Of a stretch of DNA of 32,086 nucleotides, positions 2,206 through 18,665 are shown one piece after another. Under the pieces are notes generated by a model. That model saw nothing but the letters and a program-made list of their open reading frames with translations. It was not told the origin of the DNA and ran no database searches. The DNA is from Deltaproteobacteria bacterium. Lineage in GTDB: Bacteria; Bacillota; Desulfotomaculia; Desulfotomaculales; JAGUVT01. The stretch's first letter is position 1; the number at the start of each line of letters is the position of its first letter. Made by a program: the position numbers and the translations under genes. The stretch lies in assembly GCA_020062745.1 (NCBI GenBank), contig JAGUVT010000044.1, positions 1 through 32,086 of the forward strand, in the 5' to 3' direction.

Positions 2206-3522
2206 ATGAAAATTCTTAAACAAACTGCTTCGGGCGGGTTGGCTGCCGGACAGTTTCTTACGGAACTGTCCAGGGCCCAGGCCAAATGGGAACTGGAAAT
2301 GAGCAGGGTAATTCTTGGCAGGCGTTGGAAGCTCTTGTTATTAGCCTTGCTTCCCGTGCTGCTGGGAGTTGGCATGGAGCTGGCCTCTGCAGCCATTCCC
2401 GAGCATCTTGGCGGGCATAAAGGTTACATGCCGAGCTTTGCAACCACCGAAATGTTTATAGGGTCGATTTTTATCGGTTTGATGGCCGGCCTGATTACCG
2501 GGGTGATCGGCGCCGGCGGCGGCTATGTTCTCACACCTGCTCTTATGAGTATCGGCGTAAAGGGAATTATGGCCGTCGGTACAGACCAGTTTCACCTGTT
2601 TGCCAAGGCTATTATGGGCACTGTCATCCATAAAAAAATGGGCAATGTTAATTTATGGATTGCGGTCTGGTTTGTTGTTGGTTCTGTGTCCGGAGCAACT
2701 GTGGGGGGTATAATCAACCGCTCCATTTACCAGAAGAGCCCGGCCTTGAGTGACGCTTTTATCAGTTCGGTATATGTGCTTATTCTGGGTATTCTCGGAG
2801 CATACGCCCTTTATGACTGGATTAGTTCCGGTAAGGGAAAGGCTAAAGGGACGGTGTCTTCAACCGAGGCAACCACGAAACTTGCCAAATGGATACAGTC
2901 TGTTCCCCTGAAGCCCCGGTGCAGGTTCGATGAGAACATCGTGCCCGGCGGCCGCAGCATTTCAGTATATCCGCTGATTATTGTAGGTTTTATCGTCGGC
3001 TTTGTGGCGGCTATCATGGGTGTCGGCGGCGGTTTTCTAACCTTCCCGATCTTCGTGTACGCCCTTGGCGTGTCAACGTTTACTACTGTGGGCACTGACA
3101 TCTTGCAAATCATTTTCACTACAGCGTATTCCTCTATTGCTCAGTATGCTGTGTATGGCTATGTTTTCTACAGCCTGGCCATGGGTATGCTGCTCGGCTC
3201 GCTGGTTGGGGTCCAGATGGGCGCCCTGGCGACAAAAGTTTTGAAGGGTACAACCATCAGGGCTATTTACGCCGTGACCATCATTGCCGGTTTTACCAAC
3301 AGGGTCTGTGCCTTGCCGCCAAAGCTCAGTGATGCGGGGTACGTGTCGGTGAGCAAACAGGCCGTTACAATTCTTACCAGCGTGGGTAATATAGTGTTTT
3401 TTGTTCTTGCCGCTGTTTTTTCACTCTGGATAATGCTCTCTTTCTTTAAGGGCGTAGGCAAGTTCCGTGCTGAAGCGAGGGATGCTGTAGAAACTGGATC
3501 TGCTGCCGCGGCAAACCGTTAG
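2206..3522 (+). CDS. TauE/SafE family anion permease, module A
   Basis: This 438-aa integral membrane protein belongs to the TauE/SafE (PF01925, formerly DUF81) family, which moves small anions such as sulfite, sulfoacetate or sulfonates; the substrate cannot be read from sequence. The two inverted half-repeats are marked by GVIGAGGGYVLTPALM (about 99-114) and GVGGGFLTFPIFVYALGV (272-289), each followed by an AVGT/TVGTD motif. It differs from the other three permeases in its N-terminus: about 40 residues rich in charged and Ala/Gln residues (AQAKWELEMSRVILGRR), then an extra helix (43-62), before the canonical fold. A soluble loop of about 60 residues separates the halves. TAGGAGGTG at 2191-2199 precedes the ATG by 6 bases. 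It is followed after 25 bases by the 235-aa membrane protein gene, and the two probably function together. Confidence 0.9.
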   Translation: MKILKQTASGGLAAGQFLTELSRAQAKWELEMSRVILGRRWKLLLLALLPVLLGVGMELASAAIPEHLGGHKGYMPSFATTEMFIGSIFIGLMAGLITGVIGAGGGYVLTPALMSIGVKGIMAVGTDQFHLFAKAIMGTVIHKKMGNVNLWIAVWFVVGSVSGATVGGIINRSIYQKSPALSDAFISSVYVLILGILGAYALYDWISSGKGKAKGTVSSTEATTKLAKWIQSVPLKPRCRFDENIVPGGRSISVYPLIIVGFIVGFVAAIMGVGGGFLTFPIFVYALGVSTFTTVGTDILQIIFTTAYSSIAQYAVYGYVFYSLAMGMLLGSLVGVQMGALATKVLKGTTIRAIYAVTIIAGFTNRVCALPPKLSDAGYVSVSKQAVTILTSVGNIVFFVLAAVFSLWIMLSFFKGVGKFRAEARDAVETGSAAAANR

Positions 3523-3547
3523 AATTAGCGAAGGAGGTGTTTTAAGG

Positions 3548-4255
3548 ATGATAATTAACAAGAGGCAATTCACGATCGGCTTGGTAATGATGGTATTCTT
3601 CCTCGTCGTTTTTGTTGTGATCATGAGCCCGATCATAAACGGCAAGACGATTGTACAAACTGCCGACGATTTGTTCAACTCTCTGACCAAGGGATCGACG
3701 TACTATATCTTGAAAGCGCAAAAAAGCGCAGCCGGCTTTGAAGGTAAAACGTTTGATGTTTCACTGACTCTCAAGTCAAAAGAAGAGGTCGATAAAATCA
3801 CCGGAGTTCTCAGTACGGCCGGCGCCGCTGTTGAGGCCGTTGATACCAGAGTAAAGGTCAGCGGTGACCTGGGGAAAGTGGCGAAGGGCGCCCTGGCGGA
3901 TGCGGACGGAATTTTTAAAGGTGAAGATGCCAGGGTGACCGGCCGCTACGGGTTTGCAGGCAGGGAGGCTCTTTACTACTGGTGGCTGCTTTTTAAAGAA
4001 TTGAATGGCAAATATAAGCTGGAAGGAAAATCTTCGGAAATGTCCTTCGTAAATACGGTGCAAACCAAGGCCCTGGAGGTGGCATACAACTTCAACGGTA
4101 TTCAGGCGGATAAAGTTGCCGACAGGGCTGGGATTACCACGTTCATGCTGGTGTTTTACGTAGTCTATACTGTCTGGTACGGCTTCGCCATAATGTTTCT
4201 CATGGAAGGACTGGGAATCGTTGCGTCAGCGCATGGCGAGAAGGTGGAGGCCTGA
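3548..4255 (+). CDS. Bitopic membrane protein with extracytoplasmic domain, permease partner
   Basis: I do not recognise a named family for this 235-aa protein. It has an N-terminal hydrophobic helix (about residues 9-30), a hydrophilic central domain of about 165 residues, and a C-terminal helix (about 200-222) that ends in a short charged tail. Topology is therefore two membrane spans flanking a domain most likely outside the membrane. The central domain contains a regular beta-alpha pattern (TFDVSLTLKSKEEVDKITGVL, then VKVSGDLGKVAKGAL) that could be a small alpha/beta fold. The gene starts 25 bases after the permease with AAGGAGGTG at 3531-3539 and is followed directly by a terminator, so it is the last gene of the module. 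An accessory or substrate-presenting subunit of the permease is inferred from context only. Confidence 0.8.
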   Translation: MIINKRQFTIGLVMMVFFLVVFVVIMSPIINGKTIVQTADDLFNSLTKGSTYYILKAQKSAAGFEGKTFDVSLTLKSKEEVDKITGVLSTAGAAVEAVDTRVKVSGDLGKVAKGALADADGIFKGEDARVTGRYGFAGREALYYWWLLFKELNGKYKLEGKSSEMSFVNTVQTKALEVAYNFNGIQADKVADRAGITTFMLVFYVVYTVWYGFAIMFLMEGLGIVASAHGEKVEA

Positions 4256-4272
4256 GCAATTCCTTTTGTTAC

Positions 4273-4307
4273 CGGGCAGCAGGAAAAAATCCTGTTGCCC
4301 GTTTTTA
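4273..4307 (+). terminator. Rho-independent terminator of module A
   Basis: An 11-bp stem, CGGGCAGCAGG (4273-4283) with CCTGTTGCCCG (4291-4301, one G-T pair), has a 7-base A-rich loop and is followed by TTTTTATTT. It lies 17 bases after the stop of the 235-aa protein gene. Confidence 0.9.
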
Positions 4308-4585
4308 TTTTCACATGATTGTTAATTTTTTAGTATTTGAGAGTACCCCGGTAATTCCTTGTGAAAGGCCCCGGTTCCCGCTGACGCCTGACTAAGCCGC
4401 AATTGCTCCTCCAGTCCTTATTAGATCTAAATATCTCTTCATATCTGTTGGCAGTGTTGTATTGCTTTTTAAAGGTGTGCAAATCGTTTTGGCCTTTGTC
4501 GCTGGCGCTCATTATCCATCTATTTGCCTGATGTGAAACTGGAAACAAGAGAGATATTGTGAAAAAAGAAATATGTCATGAATGC
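4308..4585. other. Intergenic stretch without a supported gene
   Basis: Between the terminator and the next promoter I see no supported coding sequence. A 72-codon frame on the minus strand (4330-4548) has no ribosome binding site and no recognisable protein pattern. Confidence 0.6.
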
Positions 4586-4614
4586 TTGCCAAATATGTAG
4601 TGACAACTTATAAT
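4586..4614 (+). promoter_or_regulatory. Sigma-A promoter for the 146-aa protein gene
   Basis: TTGCCA (4586-4591), a 17-base spacer and TATAAT (4609-4614) form a near-consensus vegetative promoter in an AT-rich tract 54 bases before the ATG at 4669. Confidence 0.8.
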
Positions 4615-4668
4615 TAATTTATAAAAAATTCTCAATTATTATGTTGACCGTGGTCAGGAGCGATTGAA

Positions 4669-5109
4669 ATGTCCAGTTCTTCACATGCCTGCCATCATGG
4701 CCTGGAGTGGGCGCCTTCCAGGGCAATGAAACACTTGAAGAATCTTCTGGAGGGTTTTTTTAAAAGCGAGGAATTAACTAGAATGGCAAAAGTGTTCCAC
4801 GGCGAATTTTCGTACGAGTTGGTTCCAAATACTGCCATAAGAGACTTCTATAATATGAATAAAGTAACGTTTATTGAATCTGGAGACTGCTATGTTTGTG
4901 TGTTTGATGCCCCGCAGTATCAGGGGCAGTACCGGATCGTAGGGCCTGGTGAAAAGGTTGTAGTGGGCGACTGCGGTTCAATAGTTGTTAGTACGCAAAC
5001 GTTCCCGGTCGATGTGGTGCGGAATAATACCCGTCCTCCGGACGGATTCTGGGAACTTTCCGGGCCCATGTACCTGTTTCATTTTTCCCCCGGTTACCGG
5101 TATGTCTAG
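4669..5109 (+). CDS. Hypothetical 146-aa soluble protein, possibly beta/gamma-crystallin-like
   Basis: I do not recognise this protein with confidence. It has no signal peptide or membrane segment. The first 45 residues are helical and basic (MKHLKNLLEGFFKSEEL). The rest looks all-beta, with many aromatic residues and a stretch FDAPQYQGQYRIVGPGEKVV followed by VGDCGSIVVS that resembles the Y/F..p.f.G....l..G....l.....SSv pattern of a beta/gamma-crystallin motif. That comparison is weak and made by eye. The ATG at 4669 has CAGGAG (4655-4660) 8 bases upstream. It is monocistronic: its own sigma-A promoter and terminator flank it, which separates it from the permease modules on both sides. An N-terminal HACHHGLEW cluster could bind metal, but this is speculation. 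Confidence 0.65.
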   Translation: MSSSSHACHHGLEWAPSRAMKHLKNLLEGFFKSEELTRMAKVFHGEFSYELVPNTAIRDFYNMNKVTFIESGDCYVCVFDAPQYQGQYRIVGPGEKVVVGDCGSIVVSTQTFPVDVVRNNTRPPDGFWELSGPMYLFHFSPGYRYV

Positions 5110-5154
5110 AAAATACCATTGGACAATGCTTCTCCAAGCTGTATTTTCAGTAAT

Positions 5155-5197
5155 AAAGAGGAATGCTGCTTTGCTAAAAAGGGCGCTCCTCTTTTTT
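5155..5197 (+). terminator. Rho-independent terminator, probably bidirectional
   Basis: A 12-position stem (5155-5166 with 5183-5194, one mismatch and one G-T pair) carries a 16-base loop and is followed on the + strand by TTTTTT (5192-5197). It ends the 146-aa gene. On the minus strand the stem is followed by TTTATTA, so it could also end the convergent permease gene. Confidence 0.8.
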
Positions 5198-5248
5198 GTG
5201 AAAATTCCTTGTTATTTTAATTATGATCTGTGAATTGCAGGATTCGTG

Positions 5249-6289
5249 CTAAAGACTTGCATCTTCGGTCGATGTTGCTTTTTCTCCTTTTATAATAATA
5301 CCTGTGGCAGGCTTGCGCTCCCGCAGAATGGATTTTATGACTGAGATGATTATGGTCATTCCCAGAACGAATACCGATCCCAGGATTAGCAGGCCGGCCG
5401 GTGTGGTATGTCCGGTGTGTTTTAGGAGTACGGCAAAACTGTTGAGTAAAATGATTGCGGCAAAAAGGGGGATTATTTTTTTACGTTCGGTGTACCTGAT
5501 TGCCAGGAGTCCCAACTGGGTGCCGGTTCCCGCGCTGATGATCAGAACTAAAGCGCTGACGATCTCAGTTCGTCCGGAGAAAGCATAACTGACTGTACCC
5601 CAGCCGTTTGTGATCAGGGTTGCCATGACATCGGTGCACAGGGCGGTCAGCATGGGCAGGCCCATTATCATGATCATAAAAGGCAACCTGATTAGACTGC
5701 CGCTGCTACCCAGAAGGCCGGTCAGGAAACCGGTAAGCAGCCCCAATACGACAATCAGCCACAGCGAAATGCTTTTATCGCTACCGGGAGATAACGAAAT
5801 CATGGGAGGCAGCTTGAGCCTTTGCATATTTTTGGCCAGGCGGTTAATCCAGGTAGTGTTTCTACTTGCGCCGGCATCTTTTTTTTGCCGGAAGTATTCG
5901 GCCAGCAAAAAAGTTCCGGTTCCGATCAGGATAAAAATATATGCTATTCTTAAAACAGAGCTTGCTACTCCCGCTTCTTCGAGGAAAAGTATTACCTGTT
6001 TGCCCTGCTGAACGCTGAAAATTCCGGCCAGGCCGATGATGACACTTGCCTTCCAGTTTATGTTTTGGAAGATGTTGTTTTTGACTGCGGTGAGAACCGA
6101 CTGGCCGGAAAGGTAGGCCAGGTTTGTTCCAATGGCAAACGCCATGGGAAAACCGAGAATGTTCAGCAGCGGGGTAAACATAAAGGAGCCGCTGATTCCG
6201 AAGAAACCGGCTGCTATGCCGATGAAAAAACCGGCGCTGATCAAAATGAAGAGATTGACAAACGTATCCGCAAAAGGCAAATAAATCAT
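5249..6289 (-). CDS. TauE/SafE family permease, divergent type, module B
   Basis: This 346-aa polytopic protein has the TauE/SafE layout of about eight to nine helices in two halves, but it is the most divergent of the four here. The usual GxGGG glycine motifs are altered to GFFGISGSFMFTPLL (28-42) and GLLGSSGSLIRLPFM (191-205), and the second half has CTD in place of the VGTD seen elsewhere. These changes are at the positions that line the transport path in this family, so it may carry a different anion. The start has AAAGGGGG 8 bases upstream. It is preceded, with a 14-base gap, by a gene for a 54-aa membrane peptide that shares its promoter. The C-terminal 30 residues are hydrophilic and cytoplasmic (REERKPATGIIIKGEK-like, read approximately). 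Confidence 0.88.
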   Translation of the reverse strand: MIYLPFADTFVNLFILISAGFFIGIAAGFFGISGSFMFTPLLNILGFPMAFAIGTNLAYLSGQSVLTAVKNNIFQNINWKASVIIGLAGIFSVQQGKQVILFLEEAGVASSVLRIAYIFILIGTGTFLLAEYFRQKKDAGASRNTTWINRLAKNMQRLKLPPMISLSPGSDKSISLWLIVVLGLLTGFLTGLLGSSGSLIRLPFMIMIMGLPMLTALCTDVMATLITNGWGTVSYAFSGRTEIVSALVLIISAGTGTQLGLLAIRYTERKKIIPLFAAIILLNSFAVLLKHTGHTTPAGLLILGSVFVLGMTIIISVIKSILRERKPATGIIIKGEKATSTEDASL

Positions 6290-6303
6290 TTTTTATCCCC
6301 CTT

Positions 6304-6468
6304 TCAACTTGTGTCTTTAGTTTTTTCCGCCAGGTTCCGGAAAAAGAACTGGGAGAGCAGCCCCAGGTTTATTCCTGCCAGAAATATCACCAGAAATGCC
6401 TGGATGCTGTAAAAATACCTGTTGTGAGCATATACATTCAAGAAGAAGTTATTTAGGCCTTCAAACAT
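6304..6468 (-). CDS. 54-aa single-span membrane peptide, module B
   Basis: This small gene encodes MFEGLNNFFLNVYAHNRYF followed by one hydrophobic helix (about residues 19-42, SIQAFLVIFLAGINLGLL) and a short basic/acidic tail (RNLAEKTKDTS). The ATG at 6468 is chosen over the longer frame from 6510 because GGAGGGGGTGG lies 6-7 bases upstream of it, inside the longer frame. It ends 14 bases before the permease start, so the two are co-transcribed. Genes of this size directly in front of TauE/SafE permeases suggest a small regulatory or assembly subunit, and module D has a similar arrangement with a 77-aa protein. No family name is known to me, and no sequence similarity between the two small proteins is evident. 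Confidence 0.8.
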   Translation of the reverse strand: MFEGLNNFFLNVYAHNRYFYSIQAFLVIFLAGINLGLLSQFFFRNLAEKTKDTS

Positions 6469-6662
6469 TGTAACCACCCCCTCCGGATAAGTGTTAGTGT
6501 ATTCTTTCACATGTTTCTTGTTAAACCAGCCCGAAAGCGGGGTTGTACGGTATTCAAACTACTTGAAAAAGCAGCTTGCGTGAGGGGTTTTTACAGTTTA
6601 AGGCCGGTTTGCGGGCTGTGTAGTGATGAAAATGTGAAATATTGTTTAATTTATTTGCCCTT

Positions 6663-6691
6663 ATTATAGGACTTATAAGTTGAAATTGCAA
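6663..6691 (-). promoter_or_regulatory. Sigma-A promoter of module B
   Basis: Read on the minus strand: TTGCAA (6691-6686), 17-base spacer, TATAAT (6668-6663). It leaves a leader of about 190 bases before the 54-aa gene. No riboswitch or attenuator that I recognise lies in that leader. Module B therefore appears vegetatively expressed, unlike modules C and D. Confidence 0.75.
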
Positions 6692-6754
6692 TAGTGTTTT
6701 GTGAAAAATATTATAAATCCAGCAAAGTTCTAAAATTCATAATTATATAAAAAT

Positions 6755-6788
6755 AAAAAAGCCCCGCCTCTATCTCTCACAGGGCCTT
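6755..6788 (-). terminator. Probable terminator of module C
   Basis: On the minus strand AAGGCCC and GGGGCTT, separated by about 16 bases, can form an imperfect stem with one bulge, followed directly by TTTTTTATTTTTAT. The U-run is strong and the stem weak. Position, 37 bases after the last gene of the module, supports the call. Confidence 0.5.
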
Positions 6789-6824
6789 GATATTTGACAT
6801 TGCTTATGTGGAGTTTGGCCCGGC

Positions 6825-7319
6825 TTAAACGACGCCTGATTTGTTAAGAACGGGCTTGGTGGTGGCAATCAGCCCGGCCAGCTTTTCGGCAGCCGTGCGG
6901 ATGTTTCCCTCTTTAACCAGGAAATAGGGAAGAAAAAGCTTGAAGCGATATTTGCCGGTGGCTTCTGCTTTCGGCTGCTCTCTTTCCAGGGTTGTGCCGA
7001 GTTTGCTTTCAATCTGGTTTTTCTGAGCCAGGAGAGGAAGGAAGGCCTGCTTTTTATGGCCGTCCATCACCAGTTCGATCACCAGCAGTTCTTTTCCCCG
7101 GTGTAAACCCTTGCGGGGGGTGGTTTTCCCGAGCCGGTAGTAGACTTCACCGTCTTCAAAGGCGTAAATGCATTTCCAGCTTTTGCTGAAGCACTTCCAC
7201 GCCCGGTTGTTGTGGGAAAATGGTTGGCCACCCGGCAAGATGTTATTTGCGGTAAGAATTTCTGATGCTTTTTCCAAAACGTCGTTGGCAAACTGATCGA
7301 AATTTTGGTCGTTCATCAT
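6825..7319 (-). CDS. DUF4268-like small protein, module C
   Basis: This is a 164-aa soluble protein. Residues about 60-155 follow the pattern I associate with DUF4268: a beta strand LLVIELVMDGHKKQAFLPLL, then QKNQIESKLGTTLEREQ, then KYRFKLFLPYF, ending with a helix EKLAGLIATTKPVL. In known DUF4268 proteins this domain follows a nuclease-like part, whereas here it stands with only a short N-terminal segment that has KCFSKSWKCIYAFEDGEVYYRL. No catalytic motif is visible. AAAGGAG lies 8 bases upstream of tandem ATG codons (7319 and 7316), so either could start translation. The gene is the last of module C, 20 bases after the CBS gene, and should be under the same sigma-54 control. The assignment is by eye and tentative. 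Confidence 0.72.
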   Translation of the reverse strand: MMNDQNFDQFANDVLEKASEILTANNILPGGQPFSHNNRAWKCFSKSWKCIYAFEDGEVYYRLGKTTPRKGLHRGKELLVIELVMDGHKKQAFLPLLAQKNQIESKLGTTLEREQPKAEATGKYRFKLFLPYFLVKEGNIRTAAEKLAGLIATTKPVLNKSGVV

Positions 7320-7339
7320 AACACTACTCCTTTGGGAGT

Positions 7340-7864
7340 TTATGCAGAGACTGACTCGGGCTCGTTGGTAACCAGTTCGCTGATTTCATTGAAGATTTCG
7401 GCAATCCGGATCATTCCCACCACCCGGCCGTTGCTAACCACCGGCAGTGCACCCAGCTTGTGTTTAATCATGGCATACACTGTCTTAATTATGGTGTCTT
7501 CGGCGTTAACGGTGACCAGGGTAATGGGATGCATGACTTCCTTTACTTTTTTTTGCGCTTCCTCCCGGCATCTTTCAGTGAAGAGTCCTTCCCAAAAAAC
7601 CGGTACGGCCCACTGTTCCACTTTCAGGAACCGGGGTTCAATGGCTACCAGAAGGGACCGGAAGGTGAGGAGGCCGGCCAGATTGTCGTCATCGTCGAAC
7701 ACCAGTACCGAGCGGTGGCCGGTGCAATGCTCTGTTCCGGCCGGACAAAAGGATTCCTTGAGTACCATGATTGCTTCTTTTACCGTACTGTTTATGTTTA
7801 CCCTCGAATACTCCTCGATTGGAATCATTAAGTCCTTTACCTTTTTCTCATGAGTAGCCGGCAT
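7340..7864 (-). CDS. Two-CBS-domain protein, module C
   Basis: A 174-aa protein with CBS 1 starting at VKDLMIPIEEYSRVNI and ending LAGLLTFRSLLVAI, a linker with the pattern W..P.FWEGLFTERCREEA, and CBS 2 from VKEVMHP to VVGMIRIAEIFNEI. It is closest in linker sequence to the CBS protein at 79-621 (shared ERCRE). The open frame starts at 7885, but the ATG at 7864 has AAAGGAGG 8 bases upstream, inside the longer frame, so 7864 is the start. It lies 58 bases after the TIGR02186 gene and 20 bases before the DUF4268-like gene. Role by family knowledge: binding of an adenine nucleotide to control a partner, here most likely the permease of the same module. Confidence 0.88.
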   Translation of the reverse strand: MPATHEKKVKDLMIPIEEYSRVNINSTVKEAIMVLKESFCPAGTEHCTGHRSVLVFDDDDNLAGLLTFRSLLVAIEPRFLKVEQWAVPVFWEGLFTERCREEAQKKVKEVMHPITLVTVNAEDTIIKTVYAMIKHKLGALPVVSNGRVVGMIRIAEIFNEISELVTNEPESVSA

Positions 7865-7922
7865 TTTACTTTCCTCCTTTCTCAATTTGGGCAGCTTGAA
7901 ATTTTGGGCTCGTAATTTTTTG

Positions 7923-8792
7923 TCAATGATGTGTCCCGACGCTGCTGTCGTCCTTAAAGATGATCCGGTTTATTTCCTTGAAGGCCGCAGAAACCAGGAG
8001 CCCAGCTCCCAACGCCACGACGACCGCCATGATGCCGTAAGCGACGGCGTTTTGCTGGGCCATGATATTCAGCGATTGTACCAGCCCGACGCTGGTTACT
8101 TTAAAGTCTTTAACGGCAGTGCCTGCGATTTTTCCATCTTTTACGGCATAAGCATAGATTTTACTTTCGCCGCGCGGCACGTCCGGCGGAATGTTGATTG
8201 TTCCTTTAAAGGAAGAACCGGAAACCTCGACAGCATTGTTTTCGTAACGGTAAAGACCCTTTTTCTCGTTGATCCGGACCAGGCCTTCAATGAATTCATT
8301 TGCTTCCTCCGGCGGCAGGACAACTGTTTTTTCATCGTGCTTGCTGGTTACTTCGGCTGTTTTTTTAAGGGCCGGGTAGCCTGGCTCGATGCCCATTTCT
8401 TGCTGCAGGGCCGGCGGCAGGTCTTCTATTTTCCCCGAACTCATTACCTGGAACATACCGGGCATCCGGCTTACCTGCACGGTTTCAACGGTCAACCACA
8501 CGGGGCCTTTTCTGCCCTGCTTGCTTAATCCCACTTTTTTATCGGGGGAAAGCACTTTCAGGAAAATAGCGCTTCCTTCAGGAGCCTGACCGGAGAATTT
8601 GATCTGGCTGCCGTTGAAATTCATGCCCACGTCGATATTGTCGATTTCGGTAGCAAGTGCCAGGGGGCCGGCAACTGCCGCCTGGTTTCCGTTGTCCGGG
8701 GCGGATGATACGGGAGTCACTGCTGCGGCGGCCAGGACTGTAAAAACCACCAGCGCCGTGATCAGAGTAAGGATCGAAGCTGGTTTTTTCAT
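7923..8792 (-). CDS. TIGR02186 (Alph_Pro_TM)-type membrane-anchored protein
   Basis: This 289-aa protein has a signal peptide (about residues 1-30, MKKPASILTLITALVVFTVL then AAAAVTPVSSA), an extracytoplasmic domain of about 215 residues, and one C-terminal helix (about 247-272) followed by a short cytoplasmic tail. The domain opens with IDVGMNFNGSQIKFSGQAPEG followed by VWLTVETVQVSRMPGMFQVMSS, which matches my memory of the TIGR02186/PF09608 family (I..-F.G....FG, W.n...v.-..P.fY.v.Ss). In other bacteria that family is encoded next to TauE/SafE permeases, exactly as here. The start overlaps the permease stop (TAATG), and its GGAGGAGGTGG ribosome binding site lies within the end of the permease gene, so translation is coupled. 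A substrate-binding or gating partner of the permease is a reasonable inference. Function of the family is not established. Confidence 0.85.
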   Translation of the reverse strand: MKKPASILTLITALVVFTVLAAAAVTPVSSAPDNGNQAAVAGPLALATEIDNIDVGMNFNGSQIKFSGQAPEGSAIFLKVLSPDKKVGLSKQGRKGPVWLTVETVQVSRMPGMFQVMSSGKIEDLPPALQQEMGIEPGYPALKKTAEVTSKHDEKTVVLPPEEANEFIEGLVRINEKKGLYRYENNAVEVSGSSFKGTINIPPDVPRGESKIYAYAVKDGKIAGTAVKDFKVTSVGLVQSLNIMAQQNAVAYGIMAVVVALGAGLLVSAAFKEINRIIFKDDSSVGTHH

Positions 8793-9739
8793 TAATGTCC
8801 ACCTCCTCCTTTAGTCAGTGCGATCAAATCCGCGGGTGCGGCTACCAGGCCGATCAGCATCTTTACCATTACGGCCAGTACGATAATCGATAGAAGGATT
8901 CTCAGTTGCTCACCCCGCAGGCGCCTGCTCAACCTGGCGCCGAATTGGGCTCCGATGGTGGAGCCGCAAAAGAGGAGAATGGCCAGGACAATATCAACGG
9001 TATGATTGGTAATGGCCTGCTGGAACGTGACATTCATGCTGGTAAATACAATTTGAAACAGGTCTGTTCCGACGGCGGCCATGGTGGGCATTCCCAGGAG
9101 ATAAATCATGGCCGGCACCGTGATGAATCCGCCTCCCACGCCCATCAGAGCGGCCAGCAGTCCGACCAGGAAGCCGAGACCGACCACGAAAATAATGGAA
9201 GCACGGATACCGCTGACGTGGAAGTCGGTCTGGAACGGAAGGCCGGCCATGAACCTTTTAAAGGCGGAAGGTTTGGCGGGCTTGTCGGAGGCCGGTTCTT
9301 TGTTATTCCCCTTTAAAGTTTTTAAAGCGTTTAAGCTTTCAAAGAACATGAATCCGCCGATGCCGGCCAACACCACGACATAAATCAACTTTACCGTGAA
9401 ATCATAATTACCGAGAGACCTCAATGCTTTTACCCACTGGGCGCCTACGGTGCCGCCCATGATTCCACCCACCAGGAAGGTAATTCCCATTTTCATATCG
9501 ACATTTCCGAGCCGTTTATGAGCGACGGCTCCGGAGGCGGAAGCGGCGACGATCTGGTTGGAATCGGAAGCGGCCGCTACGGCCGGTGGAATTCCGACCA
9601 TCATTAGTAAGGGTGTAAGCAGAAAGCCTCCGCCAACCCCAAAAAGACCGGACAGCACGCCTACCATTCCACCAAGACCCATGATTAAAAATACATTAAC
9701 CGGCATTCCCGCGACGGCTAAATATATAGTCACAAACAT
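8792..9739 (-). CDS. TauE/SafE family permease, module C
   Basis: A 315-aa permease with both canonical half-repeat motifs: GLFGVGGGFLLTPLLMMVGI (31-50) and GVGGGFITVPAMIYLLGM (200-217), with AVGTDLFQI after the second. The first half has AAASDSNQI where the AVGT motif is expected, a difference shared with no other permease here. A basic and charged cytoplasmic loop (about 140-172) separates the halves. GGGGAGGG lies 4-5 bases upstream of the ATG. It is the first gene of a four-gene unit transcribed from the sigma-54 promoter at 9927-9941, with a leader of about 175 bases. Together with the TIGR02186 protein encoded directly after it, it probably forms an anion transport complex. Substrate is unknown; sulfite, sulfonates and thiosulfate-like anions are family precedents. 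Confidence 0.92.
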   Translation of the reverse strand: MFVTIYLAVAGMPVNVFLIMGLGGMVGVLSGLFGVGGGFLLTPLLMMVGIPPAVAAASDSNQIVAASASGAVAHKRLGNVDMKMGITFLVGGIMGGTVGAQWVKALRSLGNYDFTVKLIYVVVLAGIGGFMFFESLNALKTLKGNNKEPASDKPAKPSAFKRFMAGLPFQTDFHVSGIRASIIFVVGLGFLVGLLAALMGVGGGFITVPAMIYLLGMPTMAAVGTDLFQIVFTSMNVTFQQAITNHTVDIVLAILLFCGSTIGAQFGARLSRRLRGEQLRILLSIIVLAVMVKMLIGLVAAPADLIALTKGGGGH

Positions 9740-9926
9740 TCCCTCCCCAAGACATTTTTATTCAGGTTTTCTTCTTTCTCTTTTTCTCTGTATTTGCCGG
9801 GGTCTTCTTACTCAGCAGGCATTAAATTGTTCGTTTTTTCACTTCTCTGGGCATCCCTCCCGTCATTCTTTAAAAAACTTGCCGGATGTGCTATAATTTT
9901 AGCGTTTGGTTTGGTAACTATGATAC

Positions 9927-9941
9927 GCAATTTTTGTGCCA
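9927..9941 (-). promoter_or_regulatory. Sigma-54 promoter of module C
   Basis: The minus strand reads TGGCAC-AAAAA-TTGC (9941 to 9927), the full -24/-12 consensus of RpoN promoters with correct spacing. Transcription should begin near 9914 and run into the permease at 9739. The genes for two NtrC-type activators lie adjacent, which is the expected requirement for such a promoter. Confidence 0.88.
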
Positions 9942-9950
9942 GTGAGAAAA

Positions 9951-9966
9951 AGTGAAATATTTCACT
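9951..9966. promoter_or_regulatory. Perfect 16-bp palindrome next to the sigma-54 promoter
   Basis: AGTGAAATATTTCACT is a perfect inverted repeat starting 10 bases upstream of the -24 element. A dyad of this size in front of a promoter suggests a protein-binding site. It is closer than usual for an NtrC-type enhancer site, so a second regulator, or a repressor, is possible. No second copy is seen in the window. Confidence 0.6.
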
Positions 9967-9982
9967 GTATTGGGACACTAAT

Positions 9983-10001
9983 TGTATGAATACAGACACA
10001 T
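9983..10001. promoter_or_regulatory. Candidate enhancer site A (module C)
   Basis: TGTATGAATACAGACACAT here recurs with two changed bases at 10080-10098, and its last ten bases (ACAGACACAT) recur inverted at 19073-19082 near the other sigma-54 promoter. It contains the dyad TGTAT-GA-ATACA. Its distance from the -24 element is about 57 bp. It is the candidate binding site for one of the adjacent NtrC-type regulators. Confidence 0.55.
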
Positions 10002-10079
10002 TCTGCCGGGATGTTGATCAGGTTGACAGGTAAATGCCGGTTTGTATGGGCTTTGTGAAGCAGATAACATTCCAGATGG

Positions 10080-10098
10080 TGTATGATAACAGACACAT
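10080..10098. promoter_or_regulatory. Candidate enhancer site B (module C / kinase gene)
   Basis: TGTATGATAACAGACACAT is a 17/19 direct copy of site A, 97 bp away (centre to centre). It lies about 154 bp upstream of the module C -24 element, and 39 bases before the GTG start of the histidine kinase gene, so it could serve both as enhancer and in autoregulation of the kinase-regulator pair. Confidence 0.55.
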
Positions 10099-10136
10099 GA
10101 ATGTTTGTAAATGAACAATTTCGGGAGGATTTATTA

Positions 10137-11684
10137 GTGGGTTTTATTGTTTCGTTGTTTAAAAGAAAAAGTCTCAGCCTGCAGATTTTGTTGATTACAA
10201 CGGCTATTTTAGTGGTACCGGTGCTGGTAATGCTTTATGATCTTTTTTTTGCGGCTAAGGAAGAGGAAATTCTTTTTTCAGCCAGAGAGGAGCGCCTGAG
10301 TATTGTTACTCAGGGTCTGGTTCAGGAGATAACATCCACGCTGAACGAACGCAAGGTCGAGTTTGACCATATGCGTGGTGAAGATAAGGCGGCCCTGCTG
10401 CAGAAGATTTTTGAGGAGACTGCCGGGCCTCTGGCTGCGAATAATCCCGGTGTGCGGTTGGGACTCTACCTGCCGGAGAATGAGGAGATTTTTATTGTCG
10501 GTTACCTTCACAACTACCGCAATTTTTCACCGGAAGAGGAAAATGAAAGGGAAAGAAGGGTCCTGGCGGAAGCCCGCACCGGGATTATGGCCGTTGTGGC
10601 CAGCAAGGCTCCTTTATCAAGGTTGACTGCCACTTATGACGATCAGGTCTTTGAAAACCTGTCACCGCTGCTGGTTGACGATAAGCTGGCAGGAGTGGTA
10701 TGGGCAGATGAGCGGCTGCATCCGATCTTTGCCCAGAGCCGTAATTTCCGGGCGCTTATTCGTTATGCCGCGCTGCTGGCGTTCTTTTTAGGGGCTGCCG
10801 GCGCTTTGCTTGTTATTCACAACCTGGCCGGCGGGGTCAGGCAAATAAAGGATGGTTTAATGGGTTTGGGAAATGATATTCACAAACTTCTCCCGCCCCT
10901 GCCCGGGGAAATGGGCCAGGTGGCACAGGCTATTAATAGGATGGCCCTGTCCCTGGCGGAAAAGGAAAAGCTGGAAGATGAGTTGCATCGCTCCGAGCGG
11001 CTGGCCGCCCTGGGCCGGCTGGTTACCGGACTGGCCCACGAGTTGCGCAATCCGATTGGAGTAATCAAGGCGACCGTCCAGGTAATAGAGAAGGAGTATG
11101 AAAAAATAACGGGGCTGCCTGATTACGCCAGGGTGATCAAAGAGCAGGCGGACCGGCAAAACAGGGTTATCCAGGAATTGCTCGACTTTGGAAGGCCGAG
11201 GCCGCCTCTGATTCAGTTGATTCCGGTTAATTCCCTCTTGAGCTCAACATTTACTCTTACCGAACCTTTGCTCAAGCAGCACAAAGTTGAGCTTCTTCTG
11301 GAACCGGCTGAAGCTTTGCCTCCGGTAGAAGTGGATGGGGAGAGAATAAAACAGGTTTTTGTCAACCTGATCATGAACGCGGTAGAGGCGATGCCGGAGG
11401 GCGGCAGGCTGACCGTCGGCGCCCGCATGGAGTGTGACCGGGTGGTAGTGGAATTTACGGATACGGGGAAAGGAATTGCCAGAGAGGATCTGCCTCACGT
11501 TTTTGATCCCTTTTATACCACTAAAGACGGTGGGACCGGTCTGGGCCTTTCGATCAGCCACCAGATTATAAAAATGCACGGCGGCTCGATGGATGTTAAA
11601 AGCGACTGTACACAGGGAACTACTTTTACTATTAATTTACCGGCATGGAGGCAAGAGGATGATTCCAAAGATACTGGTAATTGA
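10137..11684 (+). CDS. Membrane histidine kinase of NtrB/ZraS type, pair 1
   Basis: A 515-aa sensor kinase. Start: GTG at 10137 with GGGAGGA 7 bases upstream; the longer frame from 10101 lacks a ribosome binding site and contains this one. Layout: helix 1 (about 14-38), an extracytoplasmic sensor of about 170 residues, helix 2 (about 209-229), HAMP-like segment ending KLLPPLPGEMGQVAQAINRM, HisKA with the H box GLAHELRNPIG (H301), then HATPase with N box NLIMNAVEAM (N414), G1 DTGKGI, F box FDPFYTT and G2 GGTGLGLSI. It should autophosphorylate and pass phosphate to the NtrC-type regulator encoded next, with which it overlaps by 26 bases. Unlike pair 2 it has no PAS domain. The sensor aligns by eye with that of pair 2 (PGV..G.Y, later L.GV.WA.E.L), so the two are paralogs, and the signals may be related. 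Confidence 0.93.
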   Translation: MGFIVSLFKRKSLSLQILLITTAILVVPVLVMLYDLFFAAKEEEILFSAREERLSIVTQGLVQEITSTLNERKVEFDHMRGEDKAALLQKIFEETAGPLAANNPGVRLGLYLPENEEIFIVGYLHNYRNFSPEEENERERRVLAEARTGIMAVVASKAPLSRLTATYDDQVFENLSPLLVDDKLAGVVWADERLHPIFAQSRNFRALIRYAALLAFFLGAAGALLVIHNLAGGVRQIKDGLMGLGNDIHKLLPPLPGEMGQVAQAINRMALSLAEKEKLEDELHRSERLAALGRLVTGLAHELRNPIGVIKATVQVIEKEYEKITGLPDYARVIKEQADRQNRVIQELLDFGRPRPPLIQLIPVNSLLSSTFTLTEPLLKQHKVELLLEPAEALPPVEVDGERIKQVFVNLIMNAVEAMPEGGRLTVGARMECDRVVVEFTDTGKGIAREDLPHVFDPFYTTKDGGTGLGLSISHQIIKMHGGSMDVKSDCTQGTTFTINLPAWRQEDDSKDTGN

Positions 11685-13023
11685 CGACGAGGAACACATG
11701 TGCTGGGTGCTGGAGCGGGCCATGCGGCAGGAAGGCTACCAGGTTTTTACTGCTACCCGCGGGCGGCAGGGTCTGAACTTAATCAGGGAGGAAGCGCCTT
11801 CCCTGGTTATTCTGGATTTAAAAATGCCGGAGATGGGCGGCATGGAGGTTTTGCGGCAGGCCAAGGAGATGCAGCCGAAGCTTCCGGTTATTATCCTTAC
11901 CGCGCACGGAACCATTGAGACGGCTATAGAGGCCATGAAAATTGGCGCGGCTGATTACATAACCAAGCCTTTTGATTTGGATGAACTGAAGATTGTTATT
12001 AAGAAAGCCCTGATGATCAGCCAACTGGTTACGGAAGTTAATTTTTTGCGCTCCGAGTTAACCAAAAATTACGGCAGCATGATCGGCAAGAGCCGGGTAA
12101 TTAAAGATATCCGCCATTTAATTGAACGGGTGGCGAGGACTAATGCTACTATCTTAATTACCGGTGAGAGCGGAACCGGTAAGGAAGTGGCGGCAGTTTC
12201 CCTTCACCAGGCCAGCCTCCGGCACGAGATGCCGTTTGTGGCGGTGAATTGTGCTGCTTTACCTGAGAACTTGCTGGAAAGCGAGTTGTTCGGCCATGAG
12301 AAAGGGGCGTTTACCGGCGCGGTGGCGCGTAAGGTGGGCCGCTTTGAACTGGCCGACCGGGGTACCATCTTTCTGGATGAGATTGCTGAAATACCGCCGA
12401 GTATGCAGGTCAAGTTGCTGCGCTTTTTGCAGGAAAAAACCTTTGAAAGGGTGGGCGGTACCGAAACTCTAAAGGTGGATGTGCGGGTAATTGCGGCTAC
12501 CAACCGGAATATTGCGGAAGCTGTCGGCAAGGGCGATTTCCGTGAGGATTTGTATTACCGTTTAAATGTTGTGCATATCCATATGCCTCCGTTGCGGGAA
12601 AGAAAAGAGGATATTCCTCTTCTGGCGGAACACTTTTTGAACAAGTTTTACCCCACTTACCTGGTAAATAAGATATCGCTGGCTGCTATGGACATGCTCT
12701 GCCATTATCACTGGCCGGGCAACATCCGGGAACTTCAGAACGTGATTGAGAGGGCGGCCATTATCTGCCACGGCGGTGAAATTTTACCCGACCACTTGCC
12801 CAAAGAACTGCAGGCCGGTCAAAAATCGATGACATTAGCCGGGCCGGTGGTTCGTTTGCCGGAGGAGGGCGTTTCATTAGAAGAGGTGGAAAAGCAGTTG
12901 ATCATCCAGGCCCTTGAGCAAAGCGGCCACAATCAGAGCAAGGCGGCCCTGCTTTTGGGGATAACCAGGTCTGCCTTGCTTTACCGGATGCAAAAACATG
13001 GCATTGGTGCAGGCTCGAAATAA
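11659..13023 (+). CDS. NtrC-type sigma-54-activating response regulator, pair 1
   Basis: A 454-aa regulator in three parts. Receiver (1-120): acidic pocket IDDEE, phosphoacceptor D53 in LDLKMP, and K103 in TKPF. AAA+ domain (about 142-375): Walker A GESGTGKE (169-176), the sigma-54 contact loop GAFTGA (216-221), Walker B TIFLDE. C-terminal Fis-type helix-turn-helix (about 411-452, NQSKAALLLGITRSALLYRM). An intact GAFTGA loop means it should activate RpoN promoters, and two such promoters lie in this window. The ATG at 11659 (GGAGG 7 bases upstream) is chosen over the frame start at 11593. It overlaps the kinase gene by 26 bases, as in pair 2. No terminator is visible in the 31 bases before the convergent 141-aa gene. 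Confidence 0.95.
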   Translation: MIPKILVIDDEEHMCWVLERAMRQEGYQVFTATRGRQGLNLIREEAPSLVILDLKMPEMGGMEVLRQAKEMQPKLPVIILTAHGTIETAIEAMKIGAADYITKPFDLDELKIVIKKALMISQLVTEVNFLRSELTKNYGSMIGKSRVIKDIRHLIERVARTNATILITGESGTGKEVAAVSLHQASLRHEMPFVAVNCAALPENLLESELFGHEKGAFTGAVARKVGRFELADRGTIFLDEIAEIPPSMQVKLLRFLQEKTFERVGGTETLKVDVRVIAATNRNIAEAVGKGDFREDLYYRLNVVHIHMPPLRERKEDIPLLAEHFLNKFYPTYLVNKISLAAMDMLCHYHWPGNIRELQNVIERAAIICHGGEILPDHLPKELQAGQKSMTLAGPVVRLPEEGVSLEEVEKQLIIQALEQSGHNQSKAALLLGITRSALLYRMQKHGIGAGSK

Positions 13024-13054
13024 GATGGCCGGCAAGCTTGCGATTTAAAGAAGC

Positions 13055-13480
13055 CTATCTTGAGCGGGCTCCAAAAACCGGGTCGGCGCTTTTTGACGGC
13101 GGTGAACCGAGCCGGTTGATTAAAAGCATAGCCAGGTAATGCTCTTTTAGGAGGTGGTAGGTTCCCAGGGCAATACCCATGATTATTAATATCAAAGCCG
13201 TAACCGTATAAGGAAATAACTTTACGTGGATGTCATCAGGAGTGTAAACTTTTCCTAAAGCGTCTTTCCACCTGTAAATCTCCAGGGTATCGGGGTCTTG
13301 CTCGACTATGATGTGCCTGGAAGGGTTGAAATTGTGCTTTAATACACTTTCTTTCAGAAATTCGATGCCTGCAAAGAAACCAATCAGCGCCAGTAAGGTA
13401 ATGACAAGCGCCGCCCGCCAGCAGAACCGGCGCATTTTTTGCTGTTCCTTCAGGCTCAAAACGTCATCTACTTCCCACAC
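13055..13480 (-). CDS. Two-span membrane protein with NPSRHIIV motif (paralog of 17084-17515)
   Basis: A 141-aa protein of unrecognised family. A short N-terminal charged segment is followed by helix 1 (about 20-40), a loop of about 50 residues and helix 2 (about 89-111), then a cytoplasmic tail. The loop carries FNPSRHIIVEQDP, then EIYRWKDALGKVYTPDD and VKLFPY. Nearly the same loop occurs in the 143-aa protein of module D, so the motif is under constraint. The start is GTG at 13480 with GGAG 10 bases upstream. An in-frame stop lies just before, so nothing longer is possible; a later ATG (MRRFCWR) would shorten it by 15 residues. It lies between the two regulator genes, transcribed with pair 2 or from its own weak promoter. 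Function is unknown; a membrane partner of the kinases or permeases is inferred from position. Confidence 0.82.
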   Translation of the reverse strand: MWEVDDVLSLKEQQKMRRFCWRAALVITLLALIGFFAGIEFLKESVLKHNFNPSRHIIVEQDPDTLEIYRWKDALGKVYTPDDIHVKLFPYTVTALILIIMGIALGTYHLLKEHYLAMLLINRLGSPPSKSADPVFGARSR

Positions 13481-13504
13481 GGGAGTTCATCTCCATACTC
13501 TCTT

Positions 13505-13532
13505 TAAATAGTAGAATACCCGGTATGGTCAA
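13505..13532 (-). promoter_or_regulatory. Weak possible sigma-A promoter for the 141-aa gene
   Basis: Minus strand TTGACC (13532-13527), 16-base spacer, TATTTA (13510-13505). The -35 is good and the -10 poor. It lies 24 bases before the GTG start. Confidence 0.35.
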
Positions 13533-13601
13533 AAAGACGAAGAAAATTTCTTTAAACGGCATTATTTTTAGCCGTACAGGTAAATAGGCAAGTCGGGCGT
13601 T

Positions 13602-14969
13602 TCACATGATTATGCCCAGTTCCTTCATTTTGGCATAAAGGGTGCTGCGGTTCATTTTTAAAGCCTGCGCTGCCGCCGAGCGGTTCCAGTTATGTTCGTT
13701 TAAAGCCTTCAGGATAACCTGGCGTTCCACGTCAGCCATTATTTCCTTAAAAGACATGCCGGAGAGATCGGCGGGCCATTGTTTTTCTTTAAGGCGGGAA
13801 ATGATGCTGAACGGGATGTCTTCGGGCATTATTACCGGTCCCGCGGACATCAGCACGGCCCTTTCACAGATATTTTTCAATTCCCTGATGTTACCGGGCC
13901 AGTCGTACTGGTTTATAATTTCCATGGCCTCCCTGGAGATCCCGGTGATGTTCTTGCCGAATTCCCGGTTGCTGCTTTTGATCAGGTAGTCGACGAGAGG
14001 CGGCAGGTCTTCTTTTCGTTCGCGCAGGGGAGGCATCCAGATCTCCAGGACATTTAGCCGGAAGAAGAGGTCTTCCCGGAATGTCCCCTCCTGGATGGAT
14101 TGCTCCAGGTTTTTATTAGTGGCGGCGACGATGCGCACATCGACTTTAATGGTTTCGTTGCCGCCGATCCGCTCGAATTCCTTTTCCTGGAGAACCCGCA
14201 GGAGCTTGGCCTGGGTGGCCAGGCTGATTTCGCCGATTTCGTCTAAAAAAATGGTGCCCCGGTGAGCCAGTTCGAACTTGCCGGGCTTTCTGGCCACCGC
14301 TCCGGTAAAGGAACCTCTTTCGTGGCCGAACAACTCGCTTTCCAGCAAGTTTTCCGGAATGGAAGCGCAATTTATTTTTATAAAGGGCTGCTCCCGCCGC
14401 AGGCTGTTATAATGAATGGCCCGGGCCACCAGTTCTTTGCCGGTTCCGCTTTCCCCCCGGATTAAAACGGTGATGTTGCGGTCCACAATCCGGCCGATGG
14501 ACTTGTAAATGGCCTGCATCTTGGGAGACTGGCCGATCATGACGCCTTCGTTCAGTTTTACTTCATCCAGGTCATCCTGAATGGAAGTTATGCGGGAGAC
14601 GAGTTCCTGCATATTGACGGCCTTTTTTACGGCGGCCAGCAGTTCGTCGAGATTAAAAGGCTTCGTAATGTAGTCGAAAGCGCCCAGTTTCATTGCTTTT
14701 ATAGTGGTTTCGGTGGAACCGTAGGCGGTGATTAGAATAATCGGTACTTTCGCTCCGGTTTCGCGTACAATTTCCAGCACTCTCATGCCGTCCAGGTCCG
14801 GCATCCGGATATCCAGGAGGACGGCCCGGGGGTCCAGTTCCTTTATTTTTTCCAGGGCCTGCGTGCCGTTGGCGGCCAGTTCCACTTTGTATCCGGAATC
14901 TTCCAGCACATCCCGCAGGGCCTGGCGCACCCCTTCTTCGTCATCAGCTACAAGAATAAGATTTGGCAC
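13602..14969 (-). CDS. NtrC-type sigma-54-activating response regulator, pair 2
   Basis: A 455-aa paralog of the pair 1 regulator with the same three parts: receiver (phosphoacceptor D53 in LDIRMP, K103 in TKPF), AAA+ (Walker A GESGTGKE, Walker B TIFLDEI, then the C-terminal lid), and a Fis-type helix-turn-helix (NRSAAAQALKMNRSTLYAKM). The sigma-54 contact loop is GSFTGA (219-224) rather than GAFTGA, a variant seen in working activators. Start: GTG at 14969 with GAGAGGAG 7 bases upstream; the longer frame to 15080 is only the 3' end of the kinase in another frame. It overlaps the kinase gene by 26 bases. The DNA-contact helix differs from pair 1 (ALKMNRSTLYAKM against LLGITRSALLYRM), so the two may recognise different sites. 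Confidence 0.95.
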   Translation of the reverse strand: MPNLILVADDEEGVRQALRDVLEDSGYKVELAANGTQALEKIKELDPRAVLLDIRMPDLDGMRVLEIVRETGAKVPIILITAYGSTETTIKAMKLGAFDYITKPFNLDELLAAVKKAVNMQELVSRITSIQDDLDEVKLNEGVMIGQSPKMQAIYKSIGRIVDRNITVLIRGESGTGKELVARAIHYNSLRREQPFIKINCASIPENLLESELFGHERGSFTGAVARKPGKFELAHRGTIFLDEIGEISLATQAKLLRVLQEKEFERIGGNETIKVDVRIVAATNKNLEQSIQEGTFREDLFFRLNVLEIWMPPLRERKEDLPPLVDYLIKSSNREFGKNITGISREAMEIINQYDWPGNIRELKNICERAVLMSAGPVIMPEDIPFSIISRLKEKQWPADLSGMSFKEIMADVERQVILKALNEHNWNRSAAAQALKMNRSTLYAKMKELGIIM

Positions 14970-16788
14970 CGTAATTCTCCTCTCTGCTGGTCTGAACAAA
15001 AAAGCGGAAGGTCGTACCCTGTCCCGGCTTGCTCTCCACTTCGATGTTGCCTCCGTGGGCGCGGATAATTTCGTAAGCAATGGCCAGCCCCAGGCCGGTT
15101 CCTTTTGGTTTGGTGGAGTAAAACGGATCGAACAGGTGGCTTAAGGCCTCAGGAGCGATGCCGCAGCCGGAGTCGCTTACCGTTGTTGTTATGGCGCCCG
15201 TAACGGCGTCGTAAACCGTCTTTACTTCCAGCCTGCCGCCGTCGGGCATGGCCTGGATGGCGTTGAAGATTAAATTCATCAGCACCCTTTCAATCTGTTC
15301 GGGGTCGATCCAGGCCGGCGGCAGGTTAACGGCCAGGCTCTTGATTATGGTATACTTCCCAGGATACAGTTCAGTAAAGAACTGCAAAACTTTTTCAACC
15401 AGTTGGTTGAGGTTCTGGGTGCTGAATTTAGCTTCGGCCGGCTTGGCAAAATAAAGCAACTGATTTACTAGGGTGTCCAGCCTGGTAACCTCCTGCTGCA
15501 TGGTGGCCAGCGAGCGGGGAGAAGGATTGTTATGTCTTTGCCAGAGCTGGATATAACAACTGATTGAGGTAAGCGGGTTGCGGATTTCATGGGCTACCCC
15601 GGCCACCAGCTTGCCCAGTGCGGCCAGCCGTTCCTGGCGGTACACCCGTTCTTCTAGTCGCATCCTTTCGGTAACATCCCGGCAGCATAAAACAGTGCCG
15701 ATTATTTCCTGCTTGCTGTCCATTAGAACTGCTGTGCTGGCCAGGAGTTCCAGTGTTTTCCGGGACGGTGACACCCATTTTACTTTGACGTCCTTAAACT
15801 GCCTGTGTTCTTCGATGGTCCGGGCCAGGAGGGAAGGGAAGGGGGAATCGGCAGGGAAAATATCGGTATACTTTTTTTCCAGGCTGTCGGGGAGCAGGCC
15901 CAGTATCCTGGTCGCCGCCGAGTTGGCGATGACCACCTTGCCGCGGGAGTCCACTACCAGCAAGCCGTCGTCGATGGTCGCCAGCATTATTTCGTTGTAC
16001 TTGTGCACGTCCGAAAGCCGTATGGCCAGGCGGTTGATTGCTTTAGAAATCTCTCCCAGTTCGCCCGGCGCCGGGGGAAGAGTTTTTTTAAGATCAAATT
16101 GCAGGGTTTGCAGCCCCTTCTTGATTTGATCCACGTATTTCACAAATTTTTGCATCAACACAAGAGAGCTGCCCAGTCCGAAGACTATACCCATGATGAT
16201 TATGGCGTAAGAAGTCTGTTCGACCTGCTTGAATTTTTTATAATAATTGGTATTGCTCAGGTTTTCGGTGGCCCAAATGACCCCCTGCAACTGGCTGTGC
16301 CGGTAAAGAGGCTTGTAGGCTTCCAGAATGCCGCCCACTGATCGGCCGAAGGTCTGAACCATCGGTTCTTGCTGATTGATTGTTTTTTCAAAGGCGCTTT
16401 TGCGCCGGCGGGAGAAGTTTTCTTCGTAGTTTTCGCTGCCGTCCAGCATGACGTCCAGCTCTGATGAATAAAATCCCACTTCCACACCCGGGTACCTGGT
16501 CATTATTTCGGCAATATGAGTTTTCAACTGGTTGTTCAAAACCCGCACCTTTTCCGCTTTTGGTTCATTTAAAGCGCCGTGTTTTTTTAAAATATCGTTA
16601 AAGCTCTCACCTGTGCTTAGATCTAGCTCGTCTACCGCTCTTAAGAGCTTTGCCTTTTGATTTTCGACCAGCGCCAGTTCACTGTTTTTGATCACATGCA
16701 GCATGTAGAGGGTGACGATTACCGGCACGACCAGAAGAAAAGCAATAACAACAAGCAGTTGGTTGCCGAAGCCGTGCAGCTTGAACAT
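14944..16788 (-). CDS. PAS-containing membrane histidine kinase, pair 2
   Basis: A 614-aa sensor kinase: helix 1 (about 10-32), extracytoplasmic sensor of about 160 residues, helix 2 (about 193-214), HAMP-like segment KTLPPAPGELGEISKAINRL, PAS domain (about 264-372, IDDGLLVVDSRGKVVIANSA to GTVLCCRDVTER), HisKA with GVAHEIRNPLTS (H400), and HATPase with NLIFNAIQAM, DSGCGI, FDPFYSTKPKGTGLGLAI. The ATG at 16788 has GAGGGGGT 8 bases upstream and begins directly before helix 1; the longer frame to 16983 has no such signal. The sensor and the LPP.PGE linker resemble the pair 1 kinase. The PAS domain is the main difference and could bind a cofactor or small ligand. It should phosphorylate the regulator encoded after it. 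Confidence 0.93.
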   Translation of the reverse strand: MFKLHGFGNQLLVVIAFLLVVPVIVTLYMLHVIKNSELALVENQKAKLLRAVDELDLSTGESFNDILKKHGALNEPKAEKVRVLNNQLKTHIAEIMTRYPGVEVGFYSSELDVMLDGSENYEENFSRRRKSAFEKTINQQEPMVQTFGRSVGGILEAYKPLYRHSQLQGVIWATENLSNTNYYKKFKQVEQTSYAIIIMGIVFGLGSSLVLMQKFVKYVDQIKKGLQTLQFDLKKTLPPAPGELGEISKAINRLAIRLSDVHKYNEIMLATIDDGLLVVDSRGKVVIANSAATRILGLLPDSLEKKYTDIFPADSPFPSLLARTIEEHRQFKDVKVKWVSPSRKTLELLASTAVLMDSKQEIIGTVLCCRDVTERMRLEERVYRQERLAALGKLVAGVAHEIRNPLTSISCYIQLWQRHNNPSPRSLATMQQEVTRLDTLVNQLLYFAKPAEAKFSTQNLNQLVEKVLQFFTELYPGKYTIIKSLAVNLPPAWIDPEQIERVLMNLIFNAIQAMPDGGRLEVKTVYDAVTGAITTTVSDSGCGIAPEALSHLFDPFYSTKPKGTGLGLAIAYEIIRAHGGNIEVESKPGQGTTFRFFVQTSREENYGAKSYSCS

Positions 16789-16852
16789 TTTGTTTACCCC
16801 CTCTTTCCCCGTCATGGGGCGCCGCAAAAAAATTCCTTTTTTATCTTCCTTT

Positions 16853-16881
16853 ATTTTATTATATAGTACATGCCCAGTAAA
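16853..16881 (-). promoter_or_regulatory. Possible sigma-A promoter for kinase-regulator pair 2
   Basis: Minus strand TTTACT (16881-16876), 17-base spacer, TAAAAT (16858-16853). This is 65 bases before the kinase start. An overlapping TATAAT is one helical face away but has no -35. Confidence 0.4.
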
Positions 16882-17012
16882 GCCGTGCCGGCCTGTTATA
16901 TTTTTCTTTCTCCTTAAAATATGAGAACAAATTTGCCCTTCGGGCGACTTCAAAGAAGTTATCCACAAAAGGCTCATCCCCAAAAGGCCCGCAGCACAAT
17001 TTCCTATCCGAT

Positions 17013-17038
17013 AAAAAAAAGGCCCAAAAGGGCCTTTT
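17013..17038 (-). terminator. Terminator of module D
   Basis: AAAAGGCCC-AAAA-GGGCCTTTT forms a 9-bp perfect stem with a 4-base loop. On the minus strand it is followed by further T residues, so it ends the 143-aa gene 46 bases upstream and separates module D from kinase pair 2. Confidence 0.9.
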
Positions 17039-17083
17039 AAAGGAGAGAATGTTTGTCTCTCCCGTCACGGGCTTTTTGGATAT

Positions 17084-17515: not shown

Positions 17516-17527
17516 ACCAGCTTTTAT

Positions 17528-18601: not shown

Positions 18602-18665
18602 CTTGACCATCCTCCCCCGGATAAATTTATACCTGCTCAATTCTTATATGTGTGCCGGCCAGCGC

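Follow-up and report, generated by a model that had tools for sequence, protein, structure and literature searches.

Analysis of a 32,086-nucleotide stretch of genomic DNA (hereafter the window) revealed three 16-bp dyads, O1, O2 and O3, which are conserved predicted docking sites for the adjacent two-component regulator RR_C in the sulfate-reducing host and about 14 related genera. Each repeat follows the consensus TGTNTG-N4-CANACA, and phylogenetic footprinting identifies the repeats as functional, putative sites (Table 1).

Occurrence and conservation of the dyads

The initial annotation described a pair of direct repeats sharing a 10-mer core. Both 19-mers are in place (TGTATGAATACAGACACAT at 9983-10001 and TGTATGATAACAGACACAT at 10080-10098, offset by 97 bp), and the 10-mer ACAGACACAT has three exact copies in the window, at 9992-10001 (+), 10089-10098 (+) and 19073-19082 (-). 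The claim that there is no further copy holds as well, with the sole one-mismatch 10-mer being intragenic at 17197, as do the positions relative to the two minus-strand sigma-54 elements. However, the 10-mer itself, for which a genome-wide count had been suggested, is unremarkable: its six copies across the 2.69-Mb genome are close to the chance level, the backwards control having three. Its three copies beyond the window are all intergenic, with no convincing sigma-54 element adjacent. The 10-mer was thus rejected as the functional unit for its chance-level frequency. The description as a direct repeat proved wrong, since each repeat is a 16-bp dyad, and the set of two sites was incomplete, having overlooked O3. 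The feature that exceeds chance is the dyad around the 10-mer at 9983 and 10080, plus the third dyad.

The comparison set consisted of regions upstream of HK_C orthologs in relatives of the same order, whose RR_C proteins are mostly 61-75% identical; named relatives with RR_C orthologs include Desulfotruncus, Desulfallas, Desulfoscipio, Desulforamulus and Desulforadius. When all 6-N-6 dyads were enumerated in 14 regions, one per genus and none from the window, the top class was TGTTTG-N4-CAAACA, found at two or fewer mismatches in 12 of the 14 (shuffle maximum 8); like all these statistics, this one counts genera as independent, although they are not fully so. A symmetric matrix was then trained on 18 orthologous upstream regions, leaving the window out; scanned across the window's 32 kb, it ranked O2 first, O1 second and O3 third, the fourth match reaching 11.0 bits. 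Genome-wide statements come from pattern searches, among which the degenerate pattern TGTNYRWWWWYRNACA had precisely three matches across all 2.69 Mb, namely O1, O2 and O3 (reversed control, 0). Comparison of orthologous intergenic regions, as the initial annotation had proposed, showed that RR_C orthologs in about 14 genera are accompanied by the same arrangement.

Table 1. Features of the window around modules C and D
Feature	Position	Strand	Description
p164	6825-7319	-	conserved 164-aa protein; probable end of module C operon
CBS-like protein	7340-7885	-	CBS by resemblance only; probable distal part of module C operon
TIGR02186-like membrane protein (Alph_Pro_TM)	7923-8792	-	second gene of module C operon
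TauE_C permease (TauE/SafE, TSUP)	8792-9739	-	first gene of module C operon
Predicted sigma-70 promoter, kinase operon	9869-9897	+	TTTAAA-17-TATAAT; extended -10 TGCTATAAT at 9889-9897
Module C sigma-54 -24/-12 element	9926-9941	-	TGGCACAAAAATTGCG
O1	9983-9998		TGTATG-AATA-CAGACA; centre ~75 bp upstream of predicted module C sigma-54 start; 19.1 bits
CRP/FNR-like dyad	10053-10070		TTGTGA-N6-TAACAT; just upstream of O2; conserved
O2	10080-10095		TGTATG-ATAA-CAGACA; centre ~-172; 21.8 bits, best in window
O3	10102-10117		TGTTTG-TAAA-TGAACA; 22 bp from O2; 17.2 bits, third in window
HK_C sensor histidine kinase	10137-11684	+	GTG start; RBS GGGAGGA at 10123-10129; Pfam HisKA and HATPase_c; HELRNP box
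RR_C NtrC/AtoC-type sigma-54 activator	11593-13023	+	likely true start 11659; likely binder of O1-O3
Module D sigma-54 element	18963-18978	-	TGGCACAATTATTGCT
Third 10-mer copy	19073-19082	-	judged a coincidence, no operator
Module D promoter element	19095-19134	-	TGTTGTGATTCTAGTCAGCTTTGTGTATAAAATTACAACA; likely RR_D site, differs from O1-O3; 28.7 bits

Promoter layout and candidate regulator

The site centres lie 75, 172 and 194 bp from the sigma-54 start in the window, and distances in relatives match (e.g. 96/174/196, 84/160/182 and 86/172/194). The plan conserved in about 14 genera places a single site ~75-108 bp and a tandem pair ~160-220 bp upstream of the start, the pair being usually spaced by 21-22 bp in relatives and by 30 bp in Desulforamulus-type loci. 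Dyads conserved ~70-220 bp upstream of a -24/-12 element have the position of enhancers or upstream activating sequences. In 12 of 14 genera this element points away from the kinase, and a strict sigma-54 match is missing from two of the 14 regions; a strict promoter pattern overlooked several relatives' elements, which a looser pattern recovered. A perfect 16-bp palindrome, AGTGAAATATTTCACT, sits between the sigma-54 element and O1 at 9951-9966. An extended -10 sequence, TGNTATAAT, is directed at the kinase in all 14 genera (0.3 expected) and in the opposite direction in none, and sits beyond the sigma-54 element as seen from the kinase.

RR_C has the domains of a group I (NtrC-type) activator: a receiver (Response_reg, 3.8e-32), a sigma-54 interaction domain (Sigma54_activat, 3.1e-73) with the motifs GESGTGKE and GAFTGA, the latter in its loop, and a Fis-type HTH (HTH_8, 2.7e-16). 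It was rejected as an equivalog of AtoC, ZraR or NtrC, scoring 514.7, 447 and 453.7 bits against NCBIfam cut-offs of 714, 760 and 558.6 bits, respectively. HK_C directly precedes RR_C here and in most relatives, as a cognate kinase would, and has one predicted extracellular Cache/PAS-like domain. Among the matches listed, the structure search of HK_C retrieved only kinase cores (e.g. ZraS) and full-length kinases, with no hint of a ligand.

RR_C is the likely binder of O1-O3, because the dyads are constantly near RR_C and paralog clades carry other elements. An improbable alternative is that another conserved regulator, such as an unlinked repressor, binds the dyads instead, as dyad presence alone names no protein and the conserved CRP/FNR-like dyad shows that further factors act at the locus. 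Dyads of this type (TTGTGA-N6-TCACAA) occur at two or fewer mismatches in 11 of 14 genera (Markov mean 0.6), usually ~30 bp upstream of O2 in relatives and 27 bp in the window, and a second regulator probably acts there. The CRP/FNR-like dyad is also found in five of 12 module D regions of relatives. Against a different binder of O1-O3, however, the dyads lie beside RR_C orthologs in most genera, their placement and tandem spacing suit an enhancer-binding protein, and sister clade P, which occupies the same place in the genome, has a differing motif, TGTATC-TTTT-CCTACA, albeit with weak statistical support.

Module D and the paralog clades

A second system, comprising HK_D, RR_D and TauE_D, occupies 13.6-18.9 kb of the window. 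The initial annotation saw in the 10-mer one enhancer at both sigma-54 promoters, through which RR_C, RR_D or both would co-regulate modules C and D, and the module D promoter does have an exact 10-mer ~100 bp upstream. This copy lacks a second half-site, however, and the full dyad there (19076-19091) scores -8 bits with the window-independent matrix; the best RR_C-type match within the module D region reaches 5.9 bits. Moreover, the recognition helices of RR_C and RR_D are unlike (ITRSALLYRMQKHGI vs MNRSTLYAKMKELGI), and the relatives of RR_D have an element of their own. No simple 6-N-6 dyad stood out for the module D class by enumeration, and comparison then found a larger element of ~38 bp, TGTTG...GGTCAG...TGACC...CAACA, in seven of 19 regions, window counted (Markov mean 0.35, maximum 2), and in none of 13 class C regions. 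The element at 19095-19134 is the best window match to a model built from five relatives' elements, with the next unrelated match at 12.2 bits. Module D was accordingly rejected as a target of an O1-type site, and a common enhancer for the two modules appears very improbable. The expectation of NtrC-type enhancer sites thus stands for the local regulator, with sites conserved beside RR_C orthologs, but fails for sharing with module D. In a genome with no close RR_C ortholog (G057), a module D-type promoter carries the class C-like sequence TGTTTGATATTCAGACA, with a 5-bp spacer; its distance upstream from the sigma-54 element (L112, 15652) is ~170 bp.

Mapped onto a 39-member regulator tree, each of the four operator classes (C, P, D and E) requires a single change, and the recognition helices differ among the clades. 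The clade E element, TGGGCA-N5-TGCCCA, is present in six of six regions (shuffle maximum 2). Given the differing operator classes and recognition helices, the clades appear insulated from one another, with no shared sites predicted. The host genome has a clade E paralog on another contig (L117, contig C9, ~1750-1850), which comes with a separate TauE module and a TGAGCA-N5-TGCCCA site.

Proposed mechanism and probable role in sulfur-oxyanion transport

We consider it very likely that the adjacent NtrC-type regulator RR_C has O1, O2 and O3 as its operator/enhancer sites. From the computed sites, their conservation and layout, their exclusivity in the host genome and their recurrence upstream of SulP genes, we infer binding, activation, autorepression and a signal as follows. 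The membrane kinase HK_C would phosphorylate RR_C, whose dimers would bind the three dyads; the tandem O2-O3, on the same DNA face two helical turns apart, may seed oligomerization. Via DNA looping, RR_C would then activate the sigma-54 polymerase, turning on the TIGR02186-like and CBS-like genes along with tauE and p164. The kinase operon would be transcribed from the sigma-70 promoter beyond the sigma-54 element, and upon activation a roadblock or promoter occlusion might also limit RR_C synthesis. Because the predicted kinase promoter lies beyond the sigma-54 element, the kinase transcript would cross this element and O1-O3, from which negative feedback is predicted. The sigma-70 promoter precedes O1-O3, as expected of an autoregulated operon, and this layout is conserved, which suggests negative autoregulation of the kinase operon. 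As for the claim that a site before the kinase gene suggests autoregulation, the placement is borne out and conserved beside RR_C orthologs, and autoregulation is plausible.

Like NtrC, ZraR and AtoC, RR_C combines REC, AAA+ (GAFTGA) and Fis-type HTH domains; the paired dyads, placed 70-220 bp before a -24/-12 promoter, resemble the upstream activating sequences of these systems, and the regulator operon is probably self-controlled, as in the NtrC family. The present system differs from them in the operator, the three-site layout, the kinase promoter placed beyond the sigma-54 promoter and the unmet NCBIfam cut-offs. According to the available portions of two studies of Desulfovibrio vulgaris (Rajeev 2011, PMC3333781; Kazakov 2015, PMC4641369), TSUP/PSE permease operons of this sulfate reducer are sigma-54 dependent and controlled by response regulators (DVU0110, DVUA0057), and most sites there consist of 4-6-bp inverted repeats separated by spacers of 3-8 bp. 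These portions contain no sulfate-permease link for the regulators. D. vulgaris belongs to a different phylum, and the likeness concerns the kind of system, sigma-54-dependent TSUP-family permease operons under response-regulator control, rather than orthology or motif. The kind of system is therefore already known, whereas no paper describing the operator TGTNTG-N4-CANACA or its distribution was found in the literature searched.

Divergent from the kinase, relatives encode TauE/TSUP permeases and CBS proteins; several genomes also have SulP sulfate permeases there. Among nine full-length SulP genes in genomes with RR_C, the dyads precede four (background ~0.004 per 450 bp) and are absent from five. 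These other contexts, together with symmetric copies and variable spacers as for protein sites, leave barely any probability that the repeats, which lie within the kinase operon's predicted 5' leader, arose by chance duplication or belong to a leader RNA. An Rfam search returned no family above threshold, and a leader RNA element was accordingly rejected.

On balance we favor a role of the system in controlling the transport of sulfate or related sulfur oxyanions, because the same sites precede TauE/TSUP and SulP permeases in relatives. RR_C would probably switch sulfate-type transporters on and limit its own gene. High-affinity sulfate uptake by sulfate reducers appears regulated, judging from physiology (PMC5840216), and the TSUP permeases, numerous in sulfate-reducer genomes, lack an assigned substrate (PMC5840216, PMC4641369). 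Operators that mark TSUP and SulP genes may offer a direct handle on TSUP substrate and sulfate-uptake control.

More tentatively, an undescribed order-wide regulatory family might exist in sulfate-reducing Clostridia, with at least four NtrC-type clades (C, P, D and E) that have their own operator classes and control duplicated TauE/TSUP-CBS modules and SulP; in clade C, with its interleaved kinase and sigma-54 promoters, transporter activation would directly block regulator synthesis. If true, this family would represent transcriptional control of sulfate uptake for dissimilatory sulfate reduction. The four paralog clades with separate operators also form a ready data set on the insulation of duplicated enhancer-binding proteins.

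RR_C-type dyads with a nearby sigma-54 element also precede CBS-domain genes in the same clusters (L049, 14886-14923; L047, 16441; L050, 13846), and these genes are likely a second target unit. The host genome carries dsrA, lacks SulP and encodes a single DASS protein along with seven TSUP proteins; the window holds four of the seven, as TauE/SafE permease genes lying within 17 kb (2206-18640).
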